Virus record (IMG/VR): IMGVR_UViG_3300048109_000170 | Coordinates: 1-27,206 of that record | Strand: one strand, 5' to 3' | Length of the DNA: 27,206 bases | From: a virus | In this document: piece after piece, positions 1,623-26,536 of the stretch | Layout of the letters: every line of letters starts with the position of its first letter | How positions within the stretch are numbered: position 1 is the stretch's first letter | Notes under the pieces: generated by a model | What the model was told of the DNA's origin: nothing | Database searches by the model: none | Seen by the model: only the letters and a program-made list of their open reading frames with translations | Translations under genes and position numbers: made by a program

Positions 1623-1650
1623 AAAAAAGCGTCCAAATTGGACGCTTTTT
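1623..1650 (-). terminator. Rho-independent terminator after the SbmA-like gene
   Basis: A GC-rich GCGTCC/GGACGC stem, extended by AAAAA/TTTTT arms, with a 5-nt AAATT loop. It lies 23 nt after the stop of the gene at 1674. T-runs on both sides make it work in either direction. The same six-base stem is used at 24873-24902. Confidence 0.85.
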
Positions 1651-1673: not shown

Positions 1674-2711
1674 TTAGGACGTAGCGTTATTATCTGCTTC
1701 ATCAAGAACTTTATTAAACTCTCTTAATCGTTTAATTACAGATTGGAAATCAACAATCGTTGTCCATCTATCGATAAAGAATGTTAGTGCACCTTCTACT
1801 CTGCCAAATGCATTTAGCACCTGAATAAGAACACCAAATGTAATCAACTGTGCAAAATAACTTGGTGCTAATATTACAATAGCAACATTACCTGCTAGTA
1901 ATGAAAATCCAGTTTGCCATATACCAAAGCCCATATAGTAGTTGAATAGGCGATAGTAGTTACGTTTGATTGATGCAAACATTGGGAACAAGTCTTCTGA
2001 TAACCGTTCTTTAAAATCATCTTCACTATGAACAAGTTTTTTACGAAACTTTGCTTCTACTACTTGGTTTTTATATTCCAAACCTGGAAGTTTAATACCT
2101 AGCAAGAATGATAATAGTGTTCCACCTATACTCATTATAAGTGCAGCCCAAACTAGAAAGCCAGGAATAATTTGACCATTCCAAACTGGTAGACCTTCAC
2201 TTAATGTCCATAATACAGGTAAGAATGCAGCAAGAATGAAAATCTTATTGACAAAACCAGTGAATAGTGATTGTAGGGTTTTACCAAAGATCATTAGATC
2301 CTCTTGAATACGCTGTGAACCACCTTCAATCTTTGCTGTAGAAGATTCCCACCGCTTTAGATAGTAATGTGTATTTGCTTCTCTCCAGCGGAATGTAAAT
2401 CGTTGTGTTTGCCATGTGGCATACGTTGCCATTGGTACATAGATAAGAAGTATTTCTAAGAAACTAGGAACAGTGGTTGTTTCGTCCATACTGAACGTGA
2501 TAAACTCCCATAGTCTAACTGGATTAAAACTCCAGAATAGTTCCCAAAATCTTGCCTCTTGTAGTGTTTGTATAGCATCATAAAACTCGCGGTTCCATGC
2601 GTTATAATAAACTAGAATTTGAACATTATACCATCCAATGAATAACAGCCAAGCAAGCATTAGCCAAGCATATAGAAATTGCGATGGAGTCCAAAAGAAA
2701 CTCTTTAGCAT
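1674..2711 (-). CDS. SbmA/BacA-family inner-membrane peptide/vitamin importer
   Basis: The 345-aa product resembles SbmA/BacA along most of its length: NAWNREFYDAIQTL (37-50), a FRWREANTHYYLKRW block (108-121), IEGGSQRIQEDLM (128-140), AAFLPVLWTLS (161-171), GIKLPGLEYKNQ (205-216) and an AFGRVEGALTFFIDRW block (301-316). Hydrophobic segments lie near 12-34, 82-100, 152-170, 182-206 and 268-300. SbmA and BacA form homodimeric importers for proline-rich peptides and microcins, and a mycobacterial relative carries cobalamin; they lack an ATPase domain, as here. E. coli SbmA has about 406 residues; this protein lacks roughly the first 60, including the first membrane segment. AGGAGG precedes the ATG. 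It follows the membrane-anchored protease by 31 nt, sharing its late-type promoter. SbmA is not part of the T4 core genome, so this is an accessory gene. Confidence 0.88.
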   Translation of the reverse strand: MLKSFFWTPSQFLYAWLMLAWLLFIGWYNVQILVYYNAWNREFYDAIQTLQEARFWELFWSFNPVRLWEFITFSMDETTTVPSFLEILLIYVPMATYATWQTQRFTFRWREANTHYYLKRWESSTAKIEGGSQRIQEDLMIFGKTLQSLFTGFVNKIFILAAFLPVLWTLSEGLPVWNGQIIPGFLVWAALIMSIGGTLLSFLLGIKLPGLEYKNQVVEAKFRKKLVHSEDDFKERLSEDLFPMFASIKRNYYRLFNYYMGFGIWQTGFSLLAGNVAIVILAPSYFAQLITFGVLIQVLNAFGRVEGALTFFIDRWTTIVDFQSVIKRLREFNKVLDEADNNATS

Positions 2712-2742: not shown

Positions 2743-3615
2743 TTATACTGGATCAAGTGTTGCAGTAGTCAAACCCCAAAAATTTACATAATTTGTTGCC
2801 AAAGAAACTAGTCCTGGCTTCGCTTTGAAGTCAGTTGGTTTCAACCAATACATAGTTTGATTTGGGATTTGTATAAACAATTTACGAACTTCTGGATCGT
2901 CAACCCCAAGTTCTTCTAATAATCCCAAGAGATTACTAGCAGTACGATATGCCCCAGATTCTGCTTGTCTAGCAGGCATTCTACTAATAAATTGTTCTGG
3001 TGTACCTGGTCCGTGAATACCGAACCAAACATCACCTATAAGATATCTTCTATCTCCGCCTAAAAACATAAGACCACATGCACTTGCGCATACTGTTTTG
3101 TTTTTTAGGTGATCGATATCTAATTCATCTCCAACTTTACCTGGAGAGTATATAATTTTACCGTTTTCATTCATTACTGGTGTATCACGCACAACTGTCA
3201 CAACATTTCTTAATTTAAAGTGTGCTGCAATACAAGATCCTTCTGCTAGATTGCCACCTGGGCTTTCTAGAATAACAGTAAAGTCCATTGGCATATTGGG
3301 GACGATACGGTCACAGTCTCCATCACCAACACTTCCAGTTAATGTGTATAAGAAATCATCTATCTTAACAAAATCTAAATGCTTTTCTTCTTCTGCTTTT
3401 AGTTTTTCTGCCTGCGCATCTGCATCATTTAGTCTTTTAAATTCTGCTATATATGAATTCACATAGTTTTTTAAGTGCAACCCACCTAGCACTATAACTA
3501 CAACAATTAGCAATAGATACATAGGTTTTGATACAAGTTTTATAAGTTGTTTATATATCCAAGTTGATTTTATTGTTAAGATTGCGACTTCACGTGCTTT
3601 ACTTAGATATTTCAT
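2743..3615 (-). CDS. Membrane-anchored ClpP/crotonase-like serine protease
   Basis: The 290-aa product has a basic N-terminus, one transmembrane helix (about 32-47), a helical linker rich in A/E/K (about 55-80), then a ClpP-like domain. ESPGGNLAEG (117-126) matches the ClpP strand-turn that forms the oxyanion region; CASACGLMFLGG (176-187) places the likely nucleophile at S178, and GIHGPG (199-204) provides H201, a spacing close to the ClpP Ser-His pair. The orientation (positive N-terminus inside) would put the catalytic domain in the periplasm, like COG3904-type predicted periplasmic proteases. Two paired cysteines (C176, C180) fit an oxidising compartment. It precedes SbmA by 31 nt, behind a GATAAATA box, so the two are probably co-expressed late. 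The substrate is unknown. Confidence 0.75.
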   Translation of the reverse strand: MKYLSKAREVAILTIKSTWIYKQLIKLVSKPMYLLLIVVVIVLGGLHLKNYVNSYIAEFKRLNDADAQAEKLKAEEEKHLDFVKIDDFLYTLTGSVGDGDCDRIVPNMPMDFTVILESPGGNLAEGSCIAAHFKLRNVVTVVRDTPVMNENGKIIYSPGKVGDELDIDHLKNKTVCASACGLMFLGGDRRYLIGDVWFGIHGPGTPEQFISRMPARQAESGAYRTASNLLGLLEELGVDDPEVRKLFIQIPNQTMYWLKPTDFKAKPGLVSLATNYVNFWGLTTATLDPV

Positions 3616-3652: not shown

Positions 3653-3955
3653 TTATTTCCATCCATCCTTATTTTCTTCTGGTAATTCTGGAGTTGATGG
3701 TGCTACATTTTGTTTATTATACAATTCCATTTGTCTTTGAAATTCTTCTTTTGTAACACATTGTGCTGTCTTATACATTTTATATTCTAGATCCATAGTG
3801 AATCCTGCTGGTTGTGTTACTGCATATTGTACATATTCTTGGCATCTATCCATACTTGGAAATGGCATAAATTGATATAGTGGTTGTCCTAGTGGAATTT
3901 GAAATATAGAAACAACAAAGTGTCCTATAATCATAACTGCGTTAAAATCTGGCAT
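3653..3955 (-). CDS. Hypothetical protein with hydrophobic N-terminus (100 aa)
   Basis: The first 22 residues (MPDFNAVMIIGHFVVSIFQI) are hydrophobic and could be an uncleaved signal anchor. The rest is polar, has two cysteines (C38, C66) and ends in a proline/acid tail. The start codon overlaps the stop of the 62-aa gene upstream by one base (TAATG), so it is translated by coupling. Topology suggests a periplasm-facing small protein. No family is recognised. Confidence 0.65.
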   Translation of the reverse strand: MPDFNAVMIIGHFVVSIFQIPLGQPLYQFMPFPSMDRCQEYVQYAVTQPAGFTMDLEYKMYKTAQCVTKEEFQRQMELYNKQNVAPSTPELPEENKDGWK

Positions 3956-4145: not shown

Positions 4146-4652
4146 TTATACTGCTTCCCGTTTATTTGCCATAAGTGTCTCTGTTTGCATTTCAGATTTT
4201 GTTTTATATGGTCCTATAAAGTTACATGAATTTAATGTATCAAGTTTGCCACCATAAAACCATCTCCAATCACTTGGAAATCTTACTCCATAGTATCCTG
4301 CTGCATAACGTACTTTACTTGTGATACTCTTTGTATATGTTGGAATTTGTTTACCTTTTAATTCTATCGTTTCTATATTGAATGCACGATGTTTACATGG
4401 ATACCCTTCGACTTCATCAATTGAATATCCACTATCTTTGCCTACACTTTCAATTTTTTTAACTTGGCGAGATTCTAGAATTTTACTTCCAAATTTTTTG
4501 ACAAGATTATTGAATGACAAGATTTCAATATCATTTGTATCTTGCATAATTATTTCATAGTCACCCGATTTTACTTTTCTTATAATACCAAGTTTTATTC
4601 CAGTATCTTCAATTATCCAAAATTTATCTGTTACTATTTCAACTGTATACAT
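4146..4652 (-). CDS. Hypothetical protein (168 aa)
   Basis: Begins MYTVEIVTDKFWIIED and looks beta-rich in its first half (alternating hydrophobic residues through GIIRKVKSGDYEIIM). The second half carries PCKHRAFNIETIE and an aromatic YYGVRFPSDWRWFYGG segment near residues 118-133. No signal peptide, membrane helix or catalytic signature is visible. The start lies 14 nt inside the end of the phosphomannomutase-like gene, so translation is probably coupled. Function not recognised. Confidence 0.65.
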   Translation of the reverse strand: MYTVEIVTDKFWIIEDTGIKLGIIRKVKSGDYEIIMQDTNDIEILSFNNLVKKFGSKILESRQVKKIESVGKDSGYSIDEVEGYPCKHRAFNIETIELKGKQIPTYTKSITSKVRYAAGYYGVRFPSDWRWFYGGKLDTLNSCNFIGPYKTKSEMQTETLMANKREAV

Positions 4653-5355
4653 TCTTTAAAATCTCATATGTTTCTTCCCACTTGAATACTTTGTGGGTTC
4701 TACCTACACCTTTTTTCTTAATTGCCTGTGCTAGTGTGTAATCATTTCCGCCATCAAAGATGCCATCTCCAAAGAATATAATTGTATCATTTTTATTGAA
4801 GTCTGTAAGTATCTGGCTCTTATCAGAGCCCGTGGGACCTATATCAATACCAGTCTCTCCACCTACCGTGGCAGTTACATCTTTAAATTCATCATTGTTG
4901 TAATTAATATACAATGCCATGTTTTCACGTTCATTATATTCTTTGTCCCACTTTACATACTCTGCACGTTGTTCAGTATTAGCACCCCGTCCCACAATTG
5001 AGAAGTTAACCATGCCCGGGCGTTCTTCAATATGAGTACCGGTAAGATGTGGAAATTTTGTATTTTCTAACCAGTATCGTAATGTTTGATGTGCTGGTAC
5101 TTTTATCTTCCATGGATTATTGTGCACGTTTGCACCTTTCTCCCATACAGAATTACCATTACAGTTATAAGAACGTGTTACAGAATTAAATAATTCTTTT
5201 CCTATTTGCTCAATAGTCTTTGGCGCATCACTTCCTGTTGCTAAGTATACAGAATTGTCTTTTACAAATCTCAACATAAATCTTAAAAACTTTGGATCAA
5301 TGGCACATCTACTTGGAGTTAGTGTGCCATCTACATCAAAGATGAATCTAAGCAT
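4639..5355 (-). CDS. Phosphomannomutase-like HAD (eukaryotic PMM/Sec53 type)
   Basis: The 238-aa length is close to human PMM2 (246 aa). FDVDGTLTP holds the HAD nucleophile D7 and acid/base D9; ATGSD (39-43) is in the position of HAD motif II; ERPGMVNFSIVGR (111-123) matches the cap segment that binds the substrate phosphate in PMM; GGETGIDIGPTGSDK (165-179) matches the segment carrying the motif III lysine; FFGDGIFDGGNDY (194-206) carries the Mg-binding aspartates and the PMM-characteristic GGNDY. PMM turns mannose-6-phosphate into mannose-1-phosphate for GDP-mannose synthesis. All key residues appear intact, but the substrate could be another phospho-sugar. The gene overlaps the 5' nuclease gene by 8 nt and the next gene by 14 nt, so it belongs to the same operon. 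Confidence 0.8.
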   Translation of the reverse strand: MLRFIFDVDGTLTPSRCAIDPKFLRFMLRFVKDNSVYLATGSDAPKTIEQIGKELFNSVTRSYNCNGNSVWEKGANVHNNPWKIKVPAHQTLRYWLENTKFPHLTGTHIEERPGMVNFSIVGRGANTEQRAEYVKWDKEYNERENMALYINYNNDEFKDVTATVGGETGIDIGPTGSDKSQILTDFNKNDTIIFFGDGIFDGGNDYTLAQAIKKKGVGRTHKVFKWEETYEILKNVYS

Positions 5356-6349
5356 GTGGATAACCTTTATTTAAGATAGCAGCCATTTCATCTGGTGCTT
5401 TTGCTAGATTTTGTAAGTCCCATTCGCCGCACCAGCGAAGAAAGTTTACGCCAACACCTGCTTTGTTCTTAGGAATACTGCGATCAGCGATAGTTTCAAT
5501 AAACTTTATCTTTAAATCTTGTGGCTGCGCAGTAAGATCAATCAACTTTTTATTACGTTCATACATATCACGTACTGTATGTTCTTCGCCATTATGATCT
5601 GTCCAACGCTGTAGCATAAAGTTATTCCAATTGAAGCCACCTGTATTACGATCTTCATATGCTTCAATCATGCCTACTTTGTTCTTAGTGCCTTTCTTGC
5701 GACAACCAGGATAAGCACTGAATATATTATCACTTGTATCGCCACGAATACACTTTTCGAAAAGCAACCACTCGGGGTCAGGTGGAGATAATACTTCTTT
5801 GGTTTTTTTATCTTTAATGGGTGTACGTTTCTTATCATCTTTGAAGAATCCATCTGGTGTAATAATACGATTTTGTACACCATCGTAGATTGTCACGTTA
5901 TCACAAATTAACTGTTGATAATCGCTATCACTACTGATAATAACATGATGATCATTTGGATGAGATTCAATAAACAGCGCAATCATATCATCTGCTTCTG
6001 CTTCTGGATTTTGTAACAATGTACAATTGGTGCGTTCATCTAAGAACTTTATCATATTATCATATGCACCAAACATGATAGCATCTTCTTCTTGTTCACG
6101 TTCACTTTTTGCCATCTGTGCGGCTCTACGCTGTGCTTTATATGGTGTATAGAAGTCCTTACGCCAACTGCGTCCTTCTAAACAAAAAACTGCATGATCT
6201 GCATTAAACATATTATAGCACATCTTCACACTGGACATCATAATGTGAAAAGACATGCCAATTTTAGTGTCGATATCAGCACCACGATGTGTCACATGCT
6301 TTGCACGATGATACATGTTGAGACTATCAACTAGAATGAAAGTAGCCAT
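5348..6349 (-). CDS. rnh: 5'-3' exonuclease / RNase H, FEN-PIN family (T4 Rnh type)
   Basis: This nuclease family removes RNA primers and 5' flaps at the replication fork. The acidic metal-binding residues are in order: D8 (ILVDSLNMYHRA), E116-x-E118-A-D120-D121 (EAEADDMIA), D141 and D143 (SSDSDYQQL), and D204/D207 in CIRGDTSDNIF. These form the two-metal site. A helical-arch region with KxxR-like basics (KAQRRAAQMAKSERE) lies at 71-85. A 5'-side insertion near 170-190 is lysine-rich. Length 333 aa is close to T4 RNase H (305 aa). A host-type promoter sits at 6378-6406, and the gene leads an operon that continues with the PMM-like gene by an 8-nt overlap. Confidence 0.9.
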   Translation of the reverse strand: MATFILVDSLNMYHRAKHVTHRGADIDTKIGMSFHIMMSSVKMCYNMFNADHAVFCLEGRSWRKDFYTPYKAQRRAAQMAKSEREQEEDAIMFGAYDNMIKFLDERTNCTLLQNPEAEADDMIALFIESHPNDHHVIISSDSDYQQLICDNVTIYDGVQNRIITPDGFFKDDKKRTPIKDKKTKEVLSPPDPEWLLFEKCIRGDTSDNIFSAYPGCRKKGTKNKVGMIEAYEDRNTGGFNWNNFMLQRWTDHNGEEHTVRDMYERNKKLIDLTAQPQDLKIKFIETIADRSIPKNKAGVGVNFLRWCGEWDLQNLAKAPDEMAAILNKGYPHA

Positions 6350-8666: not shown

Positions 8667-11408
8667 TTAGAAAGTCCAAGATAAACCTGCAGTTATGGAA
8701 TCACTAGTATCATAGTTTGATATATTCCGATTAAATCCTACCATCAAATTTAATTTATCACTAATAGATTTATTAATATCTAGACCAATTCTGGTAGTGT
8801 CATATTCGTCAAAGTCTTTGCGAATACTTGCGGTAAATACATCATAATCAACATTGATACCGATTGTTGGATAATTATATGTATCTTTCTCAGTTGTATA
8901 ATCTAGAACCGCTAGTGTGCTGCCAGTTTCAGTATAGCCTTGTGTTTTTCGTTGTCCAATTGTATAACCAACGAACGGACGAAAATTACCAGTTTCTTTT
9001 TCTAACATAAGACTTACATAATTATCAGTTGATGCCGTTTCGCCAGCCGCAGCATAGTTGCCAATTGCTCTTGAATATGAAATATTGGATGTCGTATGAT
9101 TAAATGATGTAGTTAATTTTGTATCATTGTTATCAAATGATTTGTCAATATCAATTCTATATGCGTGGGTTTTCATACTACCATTACTATCACTTCCTGT
9201 CATAGTGGTATTAACTTCATTATACTCTACACCAATCAACATATTATCATTGCCCGAAATATCTTTAATTCCAATGCTATACACATTTGTATCTGCATTG
9301 TAGCCATTATTCATTTTATGATTAGTTTTCGTAACTGAAATACCATGCTCAATATCCATATTTCTGTGAATATCAATACCCAATAATTGTTCTACCTGAT
9401 CAACTCTGCCAACAACTGATTCAATATTACTAGATGTTTTGACAATATCATTTCGCGCAGTTATTGTGGTAGTTGTATCTCCATCTGTTACTACCTCTGA
9501 ACCATCATCATATGTTACTGTAGTGCGAACAAATGTCTCTGTTGTAATGTCCATTGGTGTTGTTACCAGTGTGAAAGTTTCTTTAGAAATAGTTTGTAAA
9601 TTGTTGTCAACTGTAGAATCATGTTTTACAACATTTGACGTTAATACTGGCAAAGTTGTACTTTGTGTTTCTATCGTTGATGAAATAGTTTCGCTTGATG
9701 TGTTCTCAACAACGGGCAGTGCTTGTATAGCCATCAGTTGCAATCCTACACCTGGATCAGAAAATGTGCTAACTTGTACTTTCGCAGATGATTCCACAAT
9801 CTGTAATACAACAACTTCCTCTACAACAGTCTCTTCTGCTGCTACACGTGCTGCTTCCTCTTCGGCTGCTACACGTGCTGCTTCTTCTGCGGCTGCTACA
9901 CGTGCGGCTTCTTCTGCGGCTGCAACACGCGCTGCTTCTTCTGCGGCTGCTACACGCGCTGCTTCTTCTTCGGCTGCTACACGCGCTGCTTCTTCTGCGG
10001 CTGCAACACGCGCTGCTTCTTCTGCGGCTGCTACACGCGCTGCTTCTTCTGCGGCTGCTACACGTGCTGCCTCTTCTGCTGCTACACGTGCTGCTTCTGC
10101 TTCCTCGGCAGCAATTCTTGCTGCTTCTGCCTCTTCTGCTGCTACACGTGCTGCTTCTGCTTCCTCGGCAGCAATTCTTGCTGCTTCTGCCTCTTCTGCT
10201 GCTACACGTGCTGCTTCTGCTTCCTCGGCAGCAATTCTTGCTGCTTCTGCCTCTTCTGCTGCTACACGTGCTGCCTCTGCCTCTTCTGCTGCTACACGTG
10301 CTGCCTCTGCCTCTTCTGCTGCTACACGTGCTGCTTCTGCCTCTTCTGCTGCTATCCGTGCTGCCTCTGCCTCTTCTGCTGCTACACGTGCTGCTTCTGC
10401 CTCTTCTGCTGCTATCCGTGCTGCCTCTGCCTCTGCCGCCTCACGCTCTGGCGCGGCGATTGCGGCTTCTGTTGCAGTTCCAATATCTTCAACCACCCAA
10501 TCATTATCAGCACCACCGCCAGCGTCTTCTGAATCTTCAATGGCATCAAAGACAGTTTCGCCTAAAATGTATGCATAGTTTATTGAAAGAATATCACCTA
10601 CTGCGACATCAGTCCAGTGCCAACTAATACCAATTGTATCGTCACCTGTTCCATATGGAACTTCTTCACCGTCCGCATTTTTATATTTTGAACCATCATA
10701 TGCATCCGCATCTGTTGCCCATGATTGAATACCTGCAGTTACGTTAGTATCTGTTGTATATAATCCTAGTGCATATTTTGAAACATTTGCTTCGCTAATA
10801 ACCAGATTAGTCTCTGGAACACCAGAATAACCTAATACATTTTCAGTTGCGCTGGTATCGCCTGCCACACCTTGTGAATCTGGATCGATGTACTTTCCAT
10901 AATTTACTGATTGTGCATCTGAACCAGCGGTCACCGTTGTTGTAACATCAATGTAAGATTTGTTATCTTCTAGTTTAAATACATTCTTAACATTCCAAGT
11001 GGAATCATTATGGCTGACATCGCCACTCCATGTTATGCTACTAGTTCCATTTGAAAGTCCATCTGAATCAACAATATCAGTTGAATACACAGACCAGTTG
11101 TTATTTTTATAATTTGTATCGTCTACCATAAGTGCTTGCCCATCGAATGGCGCACCTGGGGTCAGATAGTCATAATTATTATCGAATGATCCAGTGCCAT
11201 TAGGATCAAATAATATACCAGGAGTGTTACTGTCACCACTACCGAACGTACCAGATTCTTGATTGATACCAGTTTTAATCCATTGATTTTGTAGTATGCC
11301 ATCATTGTCTGATTGCATAAAACTCGTGTCAGCAATTGCAGTGGAACATAATAACATCGTCGCTGTACTAGCCATTGTTATTCTATTATATTGAATGTTA
11401 ACAAACAT
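8667..11408 (-). CDS. Autotransporter-like outer-membrane protein with Ala/Glu/Arg repeat stalk (913 aa)
   Basis: Residues 1-26 form a Sec signal peptide ending in AIA before D27 (h-region [15 protein letters not shown]; a second possible start is M12). Residues 27-310 are a beta-rich, N/D/T/G-rich extracellular-type domain. Residues about 323-523 are a repeat stalk: 12 units of 10 residues ([20 protein letters not shown]), then 9-residue units (EEAARVAAA), probably one long charged helix. After a V/T-rich linker (525-660), the C-terminal 250 residues show alternating amphipathic strands and end in GLSWTF with a terminal Phe, the signal recognised by the BAM complex. The layout is signal, passenger, stalk, barrel. 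It has its own host-type promoter at 11446-11474 and AAAGGG before the ATG, so it is probably made early. The role is unknown: host surface remodelling or superinfection exclusion are possible; a virion role is less likely given the promoter and signal peptide. Confidence 0.8.
9841..10440 (-). repeat. 600-bp in-frame tandem repeat (12x30, 1x24, 8x27 bp)
   Basis: The stalk of the outer-membrane protein is encoded by 30-bp units from 10440 to 10081, one 24-bp unit (10080-10057) and eight 27-bp units (10056-9841). All lengths are multiples of three, so gain or loss of units keeps the frame. Confidence 0.95.
10081..10260 (-). repeat. Three identical 60-bp copies inside the tandem repeat
   Basis: Bases 10081-10140, 10141-10200 and 10201-10260 are identical. 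Each holds two 30-bp units, one coding the Ile and one the Val variant. Perfect identity implies recent duplication. Confidence 0.95.
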
Positions 11409-16971: not shown

Positions 16972-19900
16972 TCATAAACCTGTGCTATATTGATATATGG
17001 TGTCGGTCTGACTTCCAGATACATACATTTTAGTGCCATCAGTATTGAAGGCTATGTCCAATGGGTCATTATCTTGAGAATTAACACTAATACTCACATT
17101 ATCGTAAGAGGTTGAGCTTAAATCAAAAGCAGTTGCTAGGGAATATTGGTACACCGTATCAGTTCTGGACGAGACCACATACATCTTGGTCCCATCAGCG
17201 TTGAAACGGAAACCCCATCCTTGAGTAGCCTGATTGGTCACACTGAAGCTGACATTATTAAATGAGGCTGAACTTACATCGAAGGCAGTAGTCAACCCAT
17301 ATTCATGTATGTTATCACCGAAACCACAAACATACATCTTAGTGCCATCAGGGTTGAAGACTATGCCAGTTGGATAACTTTCCTGAATAGATATGTCATA
17401 GGCCTGATTTGCATAGATAGCGGTACTTATGTCAAAAGCTACTGATAGAGAATATTGATAGACAGTCGCGTTTGCAAACCCACAAATATACATCTTAGTG
17501 CCATCAGTGCTGAAAAATAATGCGCTGGGACTAGTCTCTTGGCCACTTGCATTTATATCAAATGTTCTTGAAAGTGTTGGCGCTGTGCTTAGGTCAAAAG
17601 CGGTTGATAGCGTGTATTGAATTACCCTTTTTGTATTGGCTCCAAGCTGATACATCTTAGTGCCATCAGCGTTGAAGGTTATTTGATAAGGCGTACCATC
17701 TATATTGCCTATACCGAAGCTAACATTATCGTATGTCACATTCGAAAGATCAATAGTCCATCCAGTAGATTCTTCTGCAGGTGCACTTGCTTCTATAATT
17801 GGCGCACTAAAGATATAGGATTTGCCTGAATTTGTACCACCAGCGTCATCTTCAAACATTGCACCTACAATTATATTTGAGCCAGATATTGACACTCTGT
17901 CACCGAATCTATCCTCCTGACTCGTACCATAAGCATTTGGATTATCTAATGTATTTGTTAATGATCCATCTGATAAGTCATATATGTAGACTTTACCTGA
18001 AGTATTACCATCAGCATCGTCTTCTCCAATCGCACCAACAATTGCATGTGTATCAGATATTGAAACTGACACCCCAAAATGATCGTCTTGACTAGTACCA
18101 TATGGATTTGGATTATCTAGTGTATATGCTAATGATCCATCTGATAGGTCAAAGATATATGCTTTACCTGAAGTTGTACCACCAGCATCATCTTCGCCAT
18201 ACGCACCTACAATTGCATGTGTATCAGATATTGCTACTGATCCGCCAAAGTAATCAAATTCACTAGTACCATACCCATTTGGGTTATCTAATGTATAAAC
18301 TAGAGAACCTGAAGTCACATTGAAGATATATGCTTTACCTGATCCATTGCCACCTGAATCATCTTCAAGCCGCGCACTTACAATCGCATAGTCACCAGAT
18401 ATCGACACTGCAGTGCCAAAGTAATCTTGTACACCGTCACCATAAGCATCTGGATTATCTAGGGTATGTAATAATGAACCATCAGATACGTTAAAAATGT
18501 AGGCTTTACCCGAATCATTCCCACTGAATGCACTCCCAACGCCATTGTCATCATCTTCGTACATTGCACCAACGATTGCATAGTCACCAGATATTGCCAC
18601 CGAATTACCAAACATATCATTGGAGTAGCCATTCGACGTAGCAGTACCATAAGCATTTGGATTATTTATTGTATGTGCTAATGAACCATCGGATACGTTA
18701 AAAATGTAGGCTATACCTGAATTAAAACCATTTGAATCATCTTCGCTATAAGCACTTACAATTGCATGTGTATCAGATATTCCGACCGCAATGCCAAAAA
18801 GATCCCCAGGTTCTGAATGAGTACCCTGATTGGGATTATCTATTGTATGTGCTAATGACCCATCCGATAAGTCAAAAATATAGGCTTTGCCTTCAGCACC
18901 CACCGCTTCATTTTGCGCACCTATAATTGCATGTGTACTAGATATTGCGACATTAGCAAAGTAATCATCCTGACTCGTACCATAAGCATTTGGATTATCT
19001 AGTGTATATTTTAATGTAGCATTACTCCAGTCTGCAGTTCCAGTAGATTCTTGTACTTCTTGGCCGGGATTAGAGTATATAAGAAACGCTCCGGTATTGT
19101 TCGTACTATCTTCAGAACCGTTTCTAGAGCCGATAATGGTTTTACTGTCAGTGATTGCAACTGCGGAGCCAAAAGCCCCCCCAATGCCTGGATTTAGCCA
19201 TGTAGATATGTCAGTCGCATCAGTTTCGGTGAACGTTTGTAATAATGTGCCAGTTGTTAAATCATATACAGCGGCAGGACCAAAATCCCAACCGAGATTG
19301 CCCGCAACTAAATAATTATCTTTTATATTTACTGTTGCACCAAACGTTGCAGCCGCACCTATAGGTGCTGCCAAAGTATGAAGTAGTGTTCCTGTAGTTA
19401 GATCATAAACAAAAATTTTGTCTACGTCATTAGTCCAGCCTAACGCCAAATAATTACCTTCAGCGGTCAATGATGTGAAACTAACTGTTGCATTTATTGT
19501 CAGGCTAGTAGTATTTAAATTGCCATTAGATAAAGCAGTGGGTATATCATGCACTGTTATTATGGAGCCATTATTTGACGCAAGTATCAAATTATTACCA
19601 GATATATCCATCGTTCCAACCCCTCCGCCAAAATATGCAGCGGAATCATAATTTGGATCCGGGAAGGTTGTAAGAGTGCTGGTTGCTAATTCAAATATTT
19701 TAATCGGCCCAGCCCCAGATCCAGGATCAAAACCACCCAATCCACATCCAACTGCATAATTTTCATCAATTGCAACATTTCTAGCGGCGCCGGTAATTGT
19801 TGTAATTAGAGCCCCCGTTGATACATTATGTATGGTTGCATAGCCGCTGCCATTACCTGCAATAAAATAATCTCCATGTATATCAATTTGCCAACCAAAG

Positions 19901-20217
19901 CCGTTAGTCTGCGCAGGTGGCGATGGGGCTGGCACTGTCATATGAAACGAACCGTCTGATAAGTTCCAAATATGTGCCTGATTATAATCACCGTCTCCAG
20001 TAACTAAATAATCACCGTATGCCGCAAAACTACTTTGTCCGTAAATACTTGAATTTCTGCCGCCAATAATAGCCCCATCCGGACCGCTGACTGTTTGTTG
20101 TAGGACGAATGATGATCCTGATATTGCAGTTGATGCTTTTAAAAATGCAAGCATTGCTTGTTGTGCAAGTCCGACAGTGCTTATTGCACCACTTGCGAAT
20201 GATCCTAAAATTGGCAT
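16972..20217 (-). CDS. Triple beta-propeller fibre/adhesin-like protein with FG-GAP repeats (1081 aa)
   Basis: After a short helical N-terminus (MPILGSFASGAISTVGLAQQ), three repeat regions follow. Residues about 40-385 hold divergent propeller blades (for example KIFVYDLTTGTLLHTL). Residues about 395-800 hold seven FG-GAP-type repeats of about 57 residues, each with TLDNPNAYGTS, FG-x-SVAISDTHAIVGA, an acidic EDDAGG loop that could bind calcium, and SGKAYIFDLSDGSL. Residues about 820-1081 hold five blades of another type (FNADGTKMYV, then VYQYSL-x-x-AFDLSS). Such propellers mediate adhesion; in a phage the best guess is a tail fibre or receptor-binding protein. No signal peptide. It lies 28 nt after a 34-aa gene and is closed by a hairpin terminator. 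Virion location is inferred. Confidence 0.7.
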   Translation of the reverse strand: MPILGSFASGAISTVGLAQQAMLAFLKASTAISGSSFVLQQTVSGPDGAIIGGRNSSIYGQSSFAAYGDYLVTGDGDYNQAHIWNLSDGSFHMTVPAPSPPAQTNGFGWQIDIHGDYFIAGNGSGYATIHNVSTGALITTITGAARNVAIDENYAVGCGLGGFDPGSGAGPIKIFELATSTLTTFPDPNYDSAAYFGGGVGTMDISGNNLILASNNGSIITVHDIPTALSNGNLNTTSLTINATVSFTSLTAEGNYLALGWTNDVDKIFVYDLTTGTLLHTLAAPIGAAATFGATVNIKDNYLVAGNLGWDFGPAAVYDLTTGTLLQTFTETDATDISTWLNPGIGGAFGSAVAITDSKTIIGSRNGSEDSTNNTGAFLIYSNPGQEVQESTGTADWSNATLKYTLDNPNAYGTSQDDYFANVAISSTHAIIGAQNEAVGAEGKAYIFDLSDGSLAHTIDNPNQGTHSEPGDLFGIAVGISDTHAIVSAYSEDDSNGFNSGIAYIFNVSDGSLAHTINNPNAYGTATSNGYSNDMFGNSVAISGDYAIVGAMYEDDDNGVGSAFSGNDSGKAYIFNVSDGSLLHTLDNPDAYGDGVQDYFGTAVSISGDYAIVSARLEDDSGGNGSGKAYIFNVTSGSLVYTLDNPNGYGTSEFDYFGGSVAISDTHAIVGAYGEDDAGGTTSGKAYIFDLSDGSLAYTLDNPNPYGTSQDDHFGVSVSISDTHAIVGAIGEDDADGNTSGKVYIYDLSDGSLTNTLDNPNAYGTSQEDRFGDRVSISGSNIIVGAMFEDDAGGTNSGKSYIFSAPIIEASAPAEESTGWTIDLSNVTYDNVSFGIGNIDGTPYQITFNADGTKMYQLGANTKRVIQYTLSTAFDLSTAPTLSRTFDINASGQETSPSALFFSTDGTKMYICGFANATVYQYSLSVAFDISTAIYANQAYDISIQESYPTGIVFNPDGTKMYVCGFGDNIHEYGLTTAFDVSSASFNNVSFSVTNQATQGWGFRFNADGTKMYVVSSRTDTVYQYSLATAFDLSSTSYDNVSISVNSQDNDPLDIAFNTDGTKMYVSGSQTDTIYQYSTGL
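17920..19010 (-). repeat. Seven FG-GAP coding repeats
   Basis: Units of roughly 160-190 bp recur, marked on the plus strand by phrases such as 'gcatttggattatctaatgt' and 'gcatgtgtatcagatatt'. The same phrases occur in the gene at 24947. Confidence 0.85.
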
Positions 20218-24946: not shown

Positions 24947-26536
24947 CTACACTAATTTAAAGATATAAGCCTTGCCTGAAGAATTTGCAGAAGTGCCACT
25001 GCCATCATCTTCTCTACTAGCACTTATAAGAGCACGCCCATCGGATATTGCAACTGCGTGGCCAAATCTATCATGCTCAGTAGTACCAAAGGCATTTGGA
25101 TCATCTATTGTATTTACTAATGATCCATCGGTTAGATCAAAGATATAGGCCTTGCCTGGGTAGTTATTACTAACATCATCATCTTCATATGGTGCACCAA
25201 CAATTAAAATGTTGTCATCATCAATCGCAACAGACAACCCAAAATAATCATCCTCACTAGTACCAAATGCATTTGGATTATCAAGTGTATATGCTAATGA
25301 TCCATCTGACATGTCAAAAACATATACTTTGCCTGAATCATCACCACCAGCGTCATCTTCCAAGGGTGCACCAACAACTGCATAGTTATCATTAATTGTA
25401 ACCTGACTTGGCGAATGATATATGCCCATGGACCCAATAGAATCAGGGTAAGAAGTACCATAAGCATTTGGATTATCTAATGTATATACTAATGATCCGT
25501 CAGATAAATTAAAGATATGTGCTTTTCCTGAATAAGACCCATCGGCATCATTTTCATTGGGTGCACTAACAATTGCATAATTATCAGATAACGCAACTGC
25601 CCAACCAAAATAAGCATTCGCAGCGGCCGTTGGATTTGCAATTATTATAGGCTGCGAAAATAATCCATCAGAGGATATATTATAGATATAAGCAGCGCCG
25701 GTTGTAGAAGCACCCCAATCCTCGCCCCACGCACCAACAATTGCATGTGTATTGGATATTGCGACTGAGAAGCCAAATAGATCACCGGCATAATTGCCAT
25801 CCGGATTCCGGTCGTTTAAAGTTTTTATTAATGATCCATCTGCTAGATCATAGATATATACTTTACCTGAACTATAGCTTCCTGTAATTTCATCTTCTTG
25901 AAAAGCACCAACCATTGCATATGTATTAGATATTGCGACCATATGTGCAAATTTGTCATCAAGACTTGTGCCAACTGGATTTGGATTATCTAATGTATAA
26001 AGTAAGGATCCTGTTGTTACATCAAAGATATATGCTTTTCCTGAAGTAGTACCACCAGCATCATCTTCAAATTCTGCGCCAATTATTGCATGGGTACTAG
26101 ACATTGCAACTGCCATGCCAAATTGATCATTCTCACTAGTACCAAATGGATTTGGATTATCTAGTGTATGTTCTAATGTAATATTACTCCAGTCTACAGA
26201 TATTGCTGCAGCCGAGTTCATTAATTTTCTTCGTTTAATCCAAACAGAGTCTTCTTCGACTACAAAAGTATCTGCAGATACGTTACCATAGTCATATTCG
26301 GCTGCTATTTCCCACAATCCGCCCATATCAATAGATGTACCAATTGCTGACTTTGGACTTGCATTTGATCTTTTTTGATGACCGGCACCGGCTGTTCTCA
26401 ATTTACTAGGATTTTCACTGACTGATCCACGATCTGTAATCTCAACAAAATCAACAGTTGGTTCAACTTGAACTCTTGATAATTTAGTTGTTGATTTTAA
26501 TCCTGATATATTCAGTCCTTTATAGTTATTTGGCAT
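24947..26536 (-). CDS. Seven-repeat FG-GAP propeller protein, fibre/adhesin-like (529 aa)
   Basis: The N-terminal 110 residues (MPNNYKGLNISGLKSTTKLS onward) are polar, without a signal peptide, and include DMGGLWEIAAEYDYG; they may attach the protein to another virion part. Residues about 118-529 hold seven FG-GAP repeats with TLDNPNPFGTS, VAMSSTHAIIGA, EDDAGG and SGKAYIFD, closely matching the central propeller of the 1081-aa protein. Seven repeats suit one closed seven-bladed propeller; acidic D-x-D/D-D loops could bind calcium. AGGAG lies before the ATG, 17 nt after the upstream fibre-like gene. A strong terminator follows. A receptor-binding or tail-fibre role is inferred from repeats and neighbours only. 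Confidence 0.7.
   Translation of the reverse strand: MPNNYKGLNISGLKSTTKLSRVQVEPTVDFVEITDRGSVSENPSKLRTAGAGHQKRSNASPKSAIGTSIDMGGLWEIAAEYDYGNVSADTFVVEEDSVWIKRRKLMNSAAAISVDWSNITLEHTLDNPNPFGTSENDQFGMAVAMSSTHAIIGAEFEDDAGGTTSGKAYIFDVTTGSLLYTLDNPNPVGTSLDDKFAHMVAISNTYAMVGAFQEDEITGSYSSGKVYIYDLADGSLIKTLNDRNPDGNYAGDLFGFSVAISNTHAIVGAWGEDWGASTTGAAYIYNISSDGLFSQPIIIANPTAAANAYFGWAVALSDNYAIVSAPNENDADGSYSGKAHIFNLSDGSLVYTLDNPNAYGTSYPDSIGSMGIYHSPSQVTINDNYAVVGAPLEDDAGGDDSGKVYVFDMSDGSLAYTLDNPNAFGTSEDDYFGLSVAIDDDNILIVGAPYEDDDVSNNYPGKAYIFDLTDGSLVNTIDDPNAFGTTEHDRFGHAVAISDGRALISASREDDGSGTSANSSGKAYIFKLV
25070..26170 (-). repeat. Seven FG-GAP coding repeats
   Basis: Units of about 150-200 bp share phrases such as 'gcatttggattatcta' and 'aatgatccatc' with each other and with the repeats at 17920-19010. 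One unit (around 25600-25680) is divergent. Confidence 0.8.

Follow-up and report, generated by a model that had tools for sequence, protein, structure and literature searches.

ClpP proteases of the S14 family (PF00574) form a tetradecamer that works with an AAA+ unfoldase, and ATP is absent from the periplasm. Motors of the MotA/TolQ/ExbB-ExbD/TolR/MotB class, including ZorAB, consist of a PF01618 channel and a single-TM partner with an Asp residue in the membrane. Peptide importers of the SLiPT family (PF05992), to which SbmA and BacA belong, have no nucleotide-binding domain; they are known to transport antimicrobial peptides (PMC12003926, PMC13316013), and a glutamate proton ladder has been described for SbmA (PMC13316013). 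For Lentisphaerae phages, a potential auxiliary ExbB gene has been reported and listed with polysaccharide genes; the passages concerned describe no ExbD, SbmA or ClpP-like partner (PMC11361711). In the open-access literature, we found no description of a ClpP-like protein paired with SbmA, or of the larger module reported here.

The stretch of DNA analysed here (the window; 27,206 nucleotides) is a 27 kb virus record that encodes a family-B DNA polymerase, and no Rfam match or tRNA was found within it. Its close relatives are, according to their contig names, IMG/VR virus records, which we read (without computing it) as mostly marine. The minus-strand open reading frame at 2743-3615 encodes, as the first-pass annotation had described, a protein of 290 aa. 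On the basis of the reading frame, alignment, AlphaFold, Foldseek and charge distribution, we describe it as a membrane-anchored ClpP-fold protein, hereafter ClpP-TM, with a cytoplasmic N-terminus (residues ~1-29), a TM helix (~30-50) and a periplasmic domain (~78-283). Its dN/dS versus relatives is ~0.10-0.16, indicating purifying selection and a genuine gene. Located 31 nt downstream on the same strand (1674-2711, minus strand) is the gene for an SbmA/BacA-type peptide importer of 345 aa, identified by PF05992 and by alignment with E. coli SbmA; its dN/dS is at most ~0.06. Directly upstream of ClpP-TM, at a distance of 37 nt, lies a gene for a protein of 100 aa (f2; 3653-3955, minus strand). 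f2 has a single hydrophobic segment near its N-terminus and, in an alignment, two Cys residues that are invariant; it is present at 40 of the 68 ClpP-TM loci described below. Behind SbmA, folding detected an intrinsic terminator that a pattern scan had missed (1624-1650, minus strand; 12-bp stem, dG -16.6 kcal/mol, z -5.6); its end is T-rich, and the other strand is T-rich too. Co-transcription of ClpP-TM with the importer, already proposed in the first-pass annotation, is likely in view of the common strand, the short gap between the genes and the strong terminator after SbmA. Since f2 is also closely spaced and the hairpin lies directly behind SbmA, all three genes probably form a single transcript.

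The AlphaFold model of ClpP-TM (mean pLDDT 85.7) has helices at residues 2-74, followed from residue 81 by a core of alternating alpha and beta elements. When this model was compared with the PDB by Foldseek, the listed matches were all ClpP (best E 1.5e-7), with TM scores against the ClpP chain of 0.64-0.70 for most of them. A comparison of the ClpP-TM profile with the cytosolic S14 ClpP of the same phages gave E 6e-5 at a probability of only 65, and superposed the SPGG, Ser and His regions. The S14 family profile PF00574 did not match ClpP-TM. No Pfam, PHROG or NCBIfam model exceeded its cut-off, and sequence comparison with the PDB gave no credible match.

The catalytic residues were assessed by aligning 34 family members that are 42-92% identical to the window protein. 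Ser178, the nucleophile in the CASAC motif (codon at 3082-3084, minus strand), and His201 in GIHGP (3013-3015, minus strand) are each invariant (34/34). Ser178 falls on the serine of phage S14 ClpP, His201 lies at an S14-like distance from the RR motif, and in an ungapped register the two correspond to Ser100 and His125 of an S14 ClpP (L060). The SPGG motif at residues 118-121 (3253-3264, minus strand), a signature of the ClpP oxyanion loop recognised by alignment, is also invariant among the 34 sequences, and its Pro is replaced by Lys in L123. Four further residues, Cys101, Cys128, Cys176 and Cys180, are invariant and may form disulphides. The proposal that Ser178 and His201 are placed as in ClpP is thus borne out by the alignments and by the modelled fold. 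The complete Ser-His-Asp triad, which the first-pass annotation had put forward for testing, is not: in the profile alignment, the position of the canonical Asp falls on Thr254/Met255, so that ClpP-TM has no ClpP-like Asp and no classical triad. Asp262 was considered as the third residue and dropped, as L143 and L151 have His at this position. Judged from these alignments, the active site could possibly be a dyad or include a relocated acid.

ClpP-TM therefore resembles ClpP in its fold, the SPGG loop and the positions of Ser and His, but differs from it by a membrane anchor, a periplasmic domain and conserved cysteines, and by having no recognised adjacent AAA+ partner. As it also fails on the canonical Asp and on PF00574, it is not filed as S14. 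Searches of GenBank phages and plasmids yielded no relatives, nor did tblastn with L151, a divergent relative. In bacteria, homologues are distant and few in number: a GTDB scan revealed three loci, one of which is a phage-like contig in a MAG, and in the class to which Roseovarius belongs, 4 out of 190 genomes gave weak matches. The proteins L085 (Roseovarius) and L086 (Hyphomicrobiaceae) share 24-27% identity with the window protein and do not adjoin SbmA. We take them to be predicted periplasmic ClpP-like proteins of alphaproteobacteria of the COG3904 type, a group that also takes in the 'putative periplasmic protein' of Agrobacterium phage Atu_ph08. Proteins of this type share with ClpP-TM the SPGG motif, a Cys-x-Ser-x-Cys-like Ser motif and the His, and L086 has a signal-peptide-like segment. 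They lack, however, the combination of a TM anchor with SbmA pairing, whereas the phage family has additional conserved C-terminal motifs, MYWLxPxDF and LATNYxNFWG.

The orientation of ClpP-TM was deduced from its charges. Its one N-terminal TM helix is preceded by a mean net charge of +2.8 and followed by one of -3.3, an asymmetry that argues for an N-in, domain-out topology. In L151, a cleavable-looking signal peptide replaces the anchor. Taken together, these observations indicate that the domain is most likely periplasmic, in agreement with the earlier suggestion of a domain held by one N-terminal helix.

It had also been proposed to look for the same gene pair in other phages. When viral contigs were searched with the ClpP-TM alignment, 68 loci were obtained, and SbmA was the next gene on the same strand in 65 of the 66 that have a following gene (median gap 19 nt). 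A search that started from SbmA yielded 67 loci of this type, with ClpP-TM directly upstream in all 64 that have room upstream; both counts refer to contigs, all of them metagenomic and several near-identical, and not to independent events. Clustered at 70% identity, the ClpP-TM sequences form 27 clusters; at 60%, they form 13. The outer neighbours and the gene order of the pair vary between groups, so shared synteny alone is insufficient to account for the pairing. The pair is thus conserved, and with a near-absolute pairing ClpP-TM and SbmA constitute an obligate two-gene unit.

The phage importer matches SbmA_BacA (PF05992) with an E of 1.1e-78 over residues 13-336 of 345, and contains no nucleotide-binding domain. 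The nearest NCBIfam model is PRK12369, which it matches below that model's cut-off. It is ~41% identical to E. coli SbmA, from which it differs not only by its pairing with a protease but also by the loss of most of TM0, the first ~80 residues of the E. coli protein being largely missing from the alignment. Most of the glutamate ladder is present: E193, E269, E276 and E287 are retained, E378 is replaced by Asp (rarely Glu), and E203 is replaced by Gln in most phage copies, with Glu found in L076 and L077. This pattern is compatible with proton-driven import rather than proof of it. In several contigs, a different, BacA-like SbmA follows the motor genes described below without a ClpP-like gene (L174 3185-4156; L175 8181-9152; L276 12049-13017; L281 11653-12642; L316 11573-12550). 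This second lineage has ~36% identity to the first, and its ladder is intact, including E203 and E378. Matches to SbmA were also obtained in 'Acinetobacter phage MD-2021a' and in a short Salmonella record (H1). The former was rejected as an SbmA phage, since sbmA lies among bacterial housekeeping genes in what is apparently a mislabelled chromosome; its records CAKLQH020000002 / CAKLQF020000003 (254 kb) carry sbmA, pepO, gatAB and other bacterial genes.

The first-pass annotation was right about the pair and overlooked its association with a putative motor. In 33 of the 68 loci, ClpP-TM and SbmA are accompanied by a triad of genes. The first encodes a MotA/TolQ/ExbB-type channel of 146-170 aa, which matches PF01618 above the curated cut-off (1.4e-9 and 1.8e-7). 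The second product is ExbD-like, with one TM helix containing an Asp13 that is invariant in 23/23 sequences, and a periplasmic beta-sandwich; the third, f5, is a 2-TM protein. The periplasmic domain of the ExbD-like protein matched no Pfam family, ExbD/TolR and OmpA-like families included, nor any PDB fold at E <1e-3. Like the known motors, the triad combines a PF01618 channel with a single-TM partner bearing a membrane Asp; unlike them, it has a very short channel, a partner whose beta-sandwich matches none of the established families, and a fixed third protein. It is a variant of the MotA/TolQ/ExbB class not seen before. Among the nearest named models of the channel is ZorA of Zorya (9.7e-8; 1.4e-5), the match covering the channel part only. 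Neither the long tail of ZorA nor any other protein of Zorya was seen, and the ExbD-like and 2-TM proteins match nothing. PADLOC assigned no defence model to ClpP-TM or SbmA and matched the channel to ZorA only in this common part.

The arrangement of these genes differs between phages. We observed the orders ExbB-ExbD-f5-f2-protease-SbmA, protease-SbmA-ExbB-ExbD-f5-ClpP and ClpP-protease-SbmA-ExbB-ExbD-f5, and a cytosolic S14 ClpP is found at 23 of the 68 loci. In the group to which the window belongs, only f2-protease-SbmA is present at the pair locus. The nearest relative of the window, a contig of 120,762 b with a 99% identical protease, carries ExbB-ExbD-f5 tens of kb away, as do three further contigs of this group; the triad was absent from 4 of the 8 window-type contigs tested, which may be fragments. 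The triad is much more widespread than the pair: 354 viral loci were confirmed for the ExbD-like protein and 301 for the ExbB-like one. Among 152 triad loci analysed, ExbB was nearby in 151, f5 in 146, SbmA in 37 and ClpP-TM in 27. As most triad loci thus have neither SbmA nor ClpP-TM nearby, import is not the sole role of the triad.

Several observations concern the neighbours of the triad. In window-type phages, it lies behind Fe-S genes (L159 4915-7692, L160 4398-7593, L161 5563-8465), namely an A-type Fe-S carrier (PF01521, 3e-14, tested for L159) and, identified by eye, an HscB-like protein; in L160, an acyl carrier protein (PF00550) is also among the genes before the triad. In seven contigs, a protein of 275-285 aa with a signal peptide and a C-terminal Phe directly precedes the triad-protease-SbmA cluster. 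By eye it is porin-like (L064 2130-2957; homologues in L065, L069, L071, L072, L074 and L075), and it has no Pfam match. ExbB-ExbD-f5 also occurs in alphaproteobacterial chromosomes (L344 8744-10768, L345 9176-10969, L346 9020-10262), and the ExbD-like protein was found in 23 of the 190 genomes of Roseovarius' class. In three of the bacterial cases examined, the triad lies close to a PQQ-dependent alcohol dehydrogenase with a cytochrome c domain or neighbour, which hints at a cellular role in envelope uptake.

Among cultured phages in the GenBank set, the ExbD-like protein was found only in Rhizobium/Sinorhizobium phages (27 records). In 16-3, NV1.1.1, TM3_3_14B and X2_25, a gene for a trypsin-fold protease lies just 5' of the triad; the two tested matched PF13365 (3.6e-20 and 6.8e-21). 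At their N-terminus, these proteases have a membrane segment or a signal peptide. The 150 kb Pootjesviridae also encode the protease, unlinked to the triad and again with an N-terminal hydrophobic segment. At least 24 of the 27 triad-bearing records also encode such a protease, a co-occurrence that is only suggestive because few, related phage lineages are behind the records. One contig, L316, has the order ExbB-ExbD-f5-SbmA(II)-197 aa-HtrA-like lipoprotein. The same motor is thus repeatedly accompanied by exported serine proteases, and these are of two unrelated folds; this points to proteolysis as part of the function. In the temperate phage 16-3, protease and triad are situated between the immX and attP regions.

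The anatomy of the module, that is, its gene structure, the ClpP fold, the Ser and His positions, the outward orientation of the domain by the charge rule, the pairing and the co-occurrence with the triad, is well supported. From it we infer protease activity, substrate, coupling and benefit. Our leading reading, held tentatively and with a little less than even confidence, is that pair and triad form a unit for periplasmic proteolysis and peptide import driven by the proton motive force. ClpP-TM in the inner membrane would hold a ClpP-fold serine-protease domain in the periplasm and cut periplasmic peptides or proteins of the infected cell, and SbmA would carry the pieces into the cytoplasm together with protons. 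The ExbB/ExbD-like proteins would use the proton motive force to drive some envelope step, substrate delivery to the protease being the most likely one. The benefit to the phage would be nutrient supply, which fits SbmA and the porin-like exported protein before the triad in one lineage. Cutting periplasmic proteins and importing the fragments, as the first-pass annotation had put it, seems the best single reading; the conserved pair and the modelled fold speak for it, and the full Ser-His-Asp triad is not supported. Other findings fit it less well: the canonical Asp is absent, and protease activity is a prediction; the ladder Glu at E203 is Gln in most phage copies; the ExbD-like domain has no known relative; the trypsin co-occurrence comes from few related phage groups; and the triad is often found apart from SbmA and ClpP-TM (near in 37/152 and 27/152) and is missing from half of the window-type contigs tested, possibly fragments. 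A wider proposition, which we consider possible but doubtful, is a trans-envelope machine in which an ExbB/ExbD-like, ion-driven motor with a novel periplasmic domain feeds a tethered periplasmic protease of ClpP or trypsin fold and SbmA imports the products, serving uptake or exclusion.

The main rival is a protective role of the module in the infected cell or lysogen, by superinfection exclusion or peptide detoxification. Here, the protease would destroy phage proteins as they enter, bacteriocins or antimicrobial peptides, SbmA would clear the periplasm of peptides, and the channel pair would sense or power the response. The place of the 16-3 genes between immX and attP, the ZorA-like channel and the transport of antimicrobial peptides by SbmA/BacA are consistent with this, but the Zorya resemblance ends at the common channel part and a conserved importer would be odd in an exclusion system; we regard it as unlikely. 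If the missing Asp and the missing S14 Pfam match are given most weight, the one-to-one pairing with a transporter could mean that the ClpP-fold domain is a non-protease binding or regulatory partner of SbmA, e.g., a periplasmic substrate receptor. This appears improbable, since Ser, His and the Gly-Gly of the oxyanion loop are strictly kept under purifying selection and other triad phages carry a catalytic-looking exported protease of a different fold. Action on envelope proteins late in infection, aiding lysis, which had also been suggested earlier, draws on the periplasmic location and protease fold only; we found nothing further in its favour. No endolysin, holin or spanin was recognised adjoining the pair in the loci examined, in a search that was not systematic, and it is not evident how an importer would serve lysis, which makes this very improbable. 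That the genes adjoin by chance, or simply because close relatives share synteny, might be argued from the many near-identical, metagenomic contigs, but we consider it negligible in view of a pair that persists at 65/66 and 64/64 loci over 27 clusters (70% identity), at least three gene orders and different outer neighbours. Should the proteolysis-and-import reading be true, numerous uncultured phages would remodel the envelope of their host by means of a proton-powered unit of their own, a kind of virocell metabolism undescribed in the literature searched. Protein families that lack annotation in many large phages would then be joined into one testable system, whose common motor-protease part is accessible in the laboratory through the cultured Sinorhizobium phage 16-3 and other rhizobiophages. 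The trans-envelope machine, if true, would represent a type of uptake or exclusion system carried by viruses for which no precedent has been described.

Further genes of the window were noted. A phosphomannomutase/HAD-like hydrolase gene (4639-5355; PF03332, 1.7e-26) adjoins a 5'-3' exonuclease domain gene (5348-6349; PF02739), and both are kept beside the ClpP-TM/SbmA pair in window-type phages. Open frames of 379 and 279 aa at 9439-10627 (plus strand) lie antisense to a 913-aa reading frame (8667-11408) without PHROG or Pfam match, and are probably an effect of codon usage. Two large FG-GAP repeat proteins (16972-20217 and 24947-26536; PF14312, 5.5e-65 and 1.5e-64), encoded within one region of the phage, are possibly tail or surface proteins.
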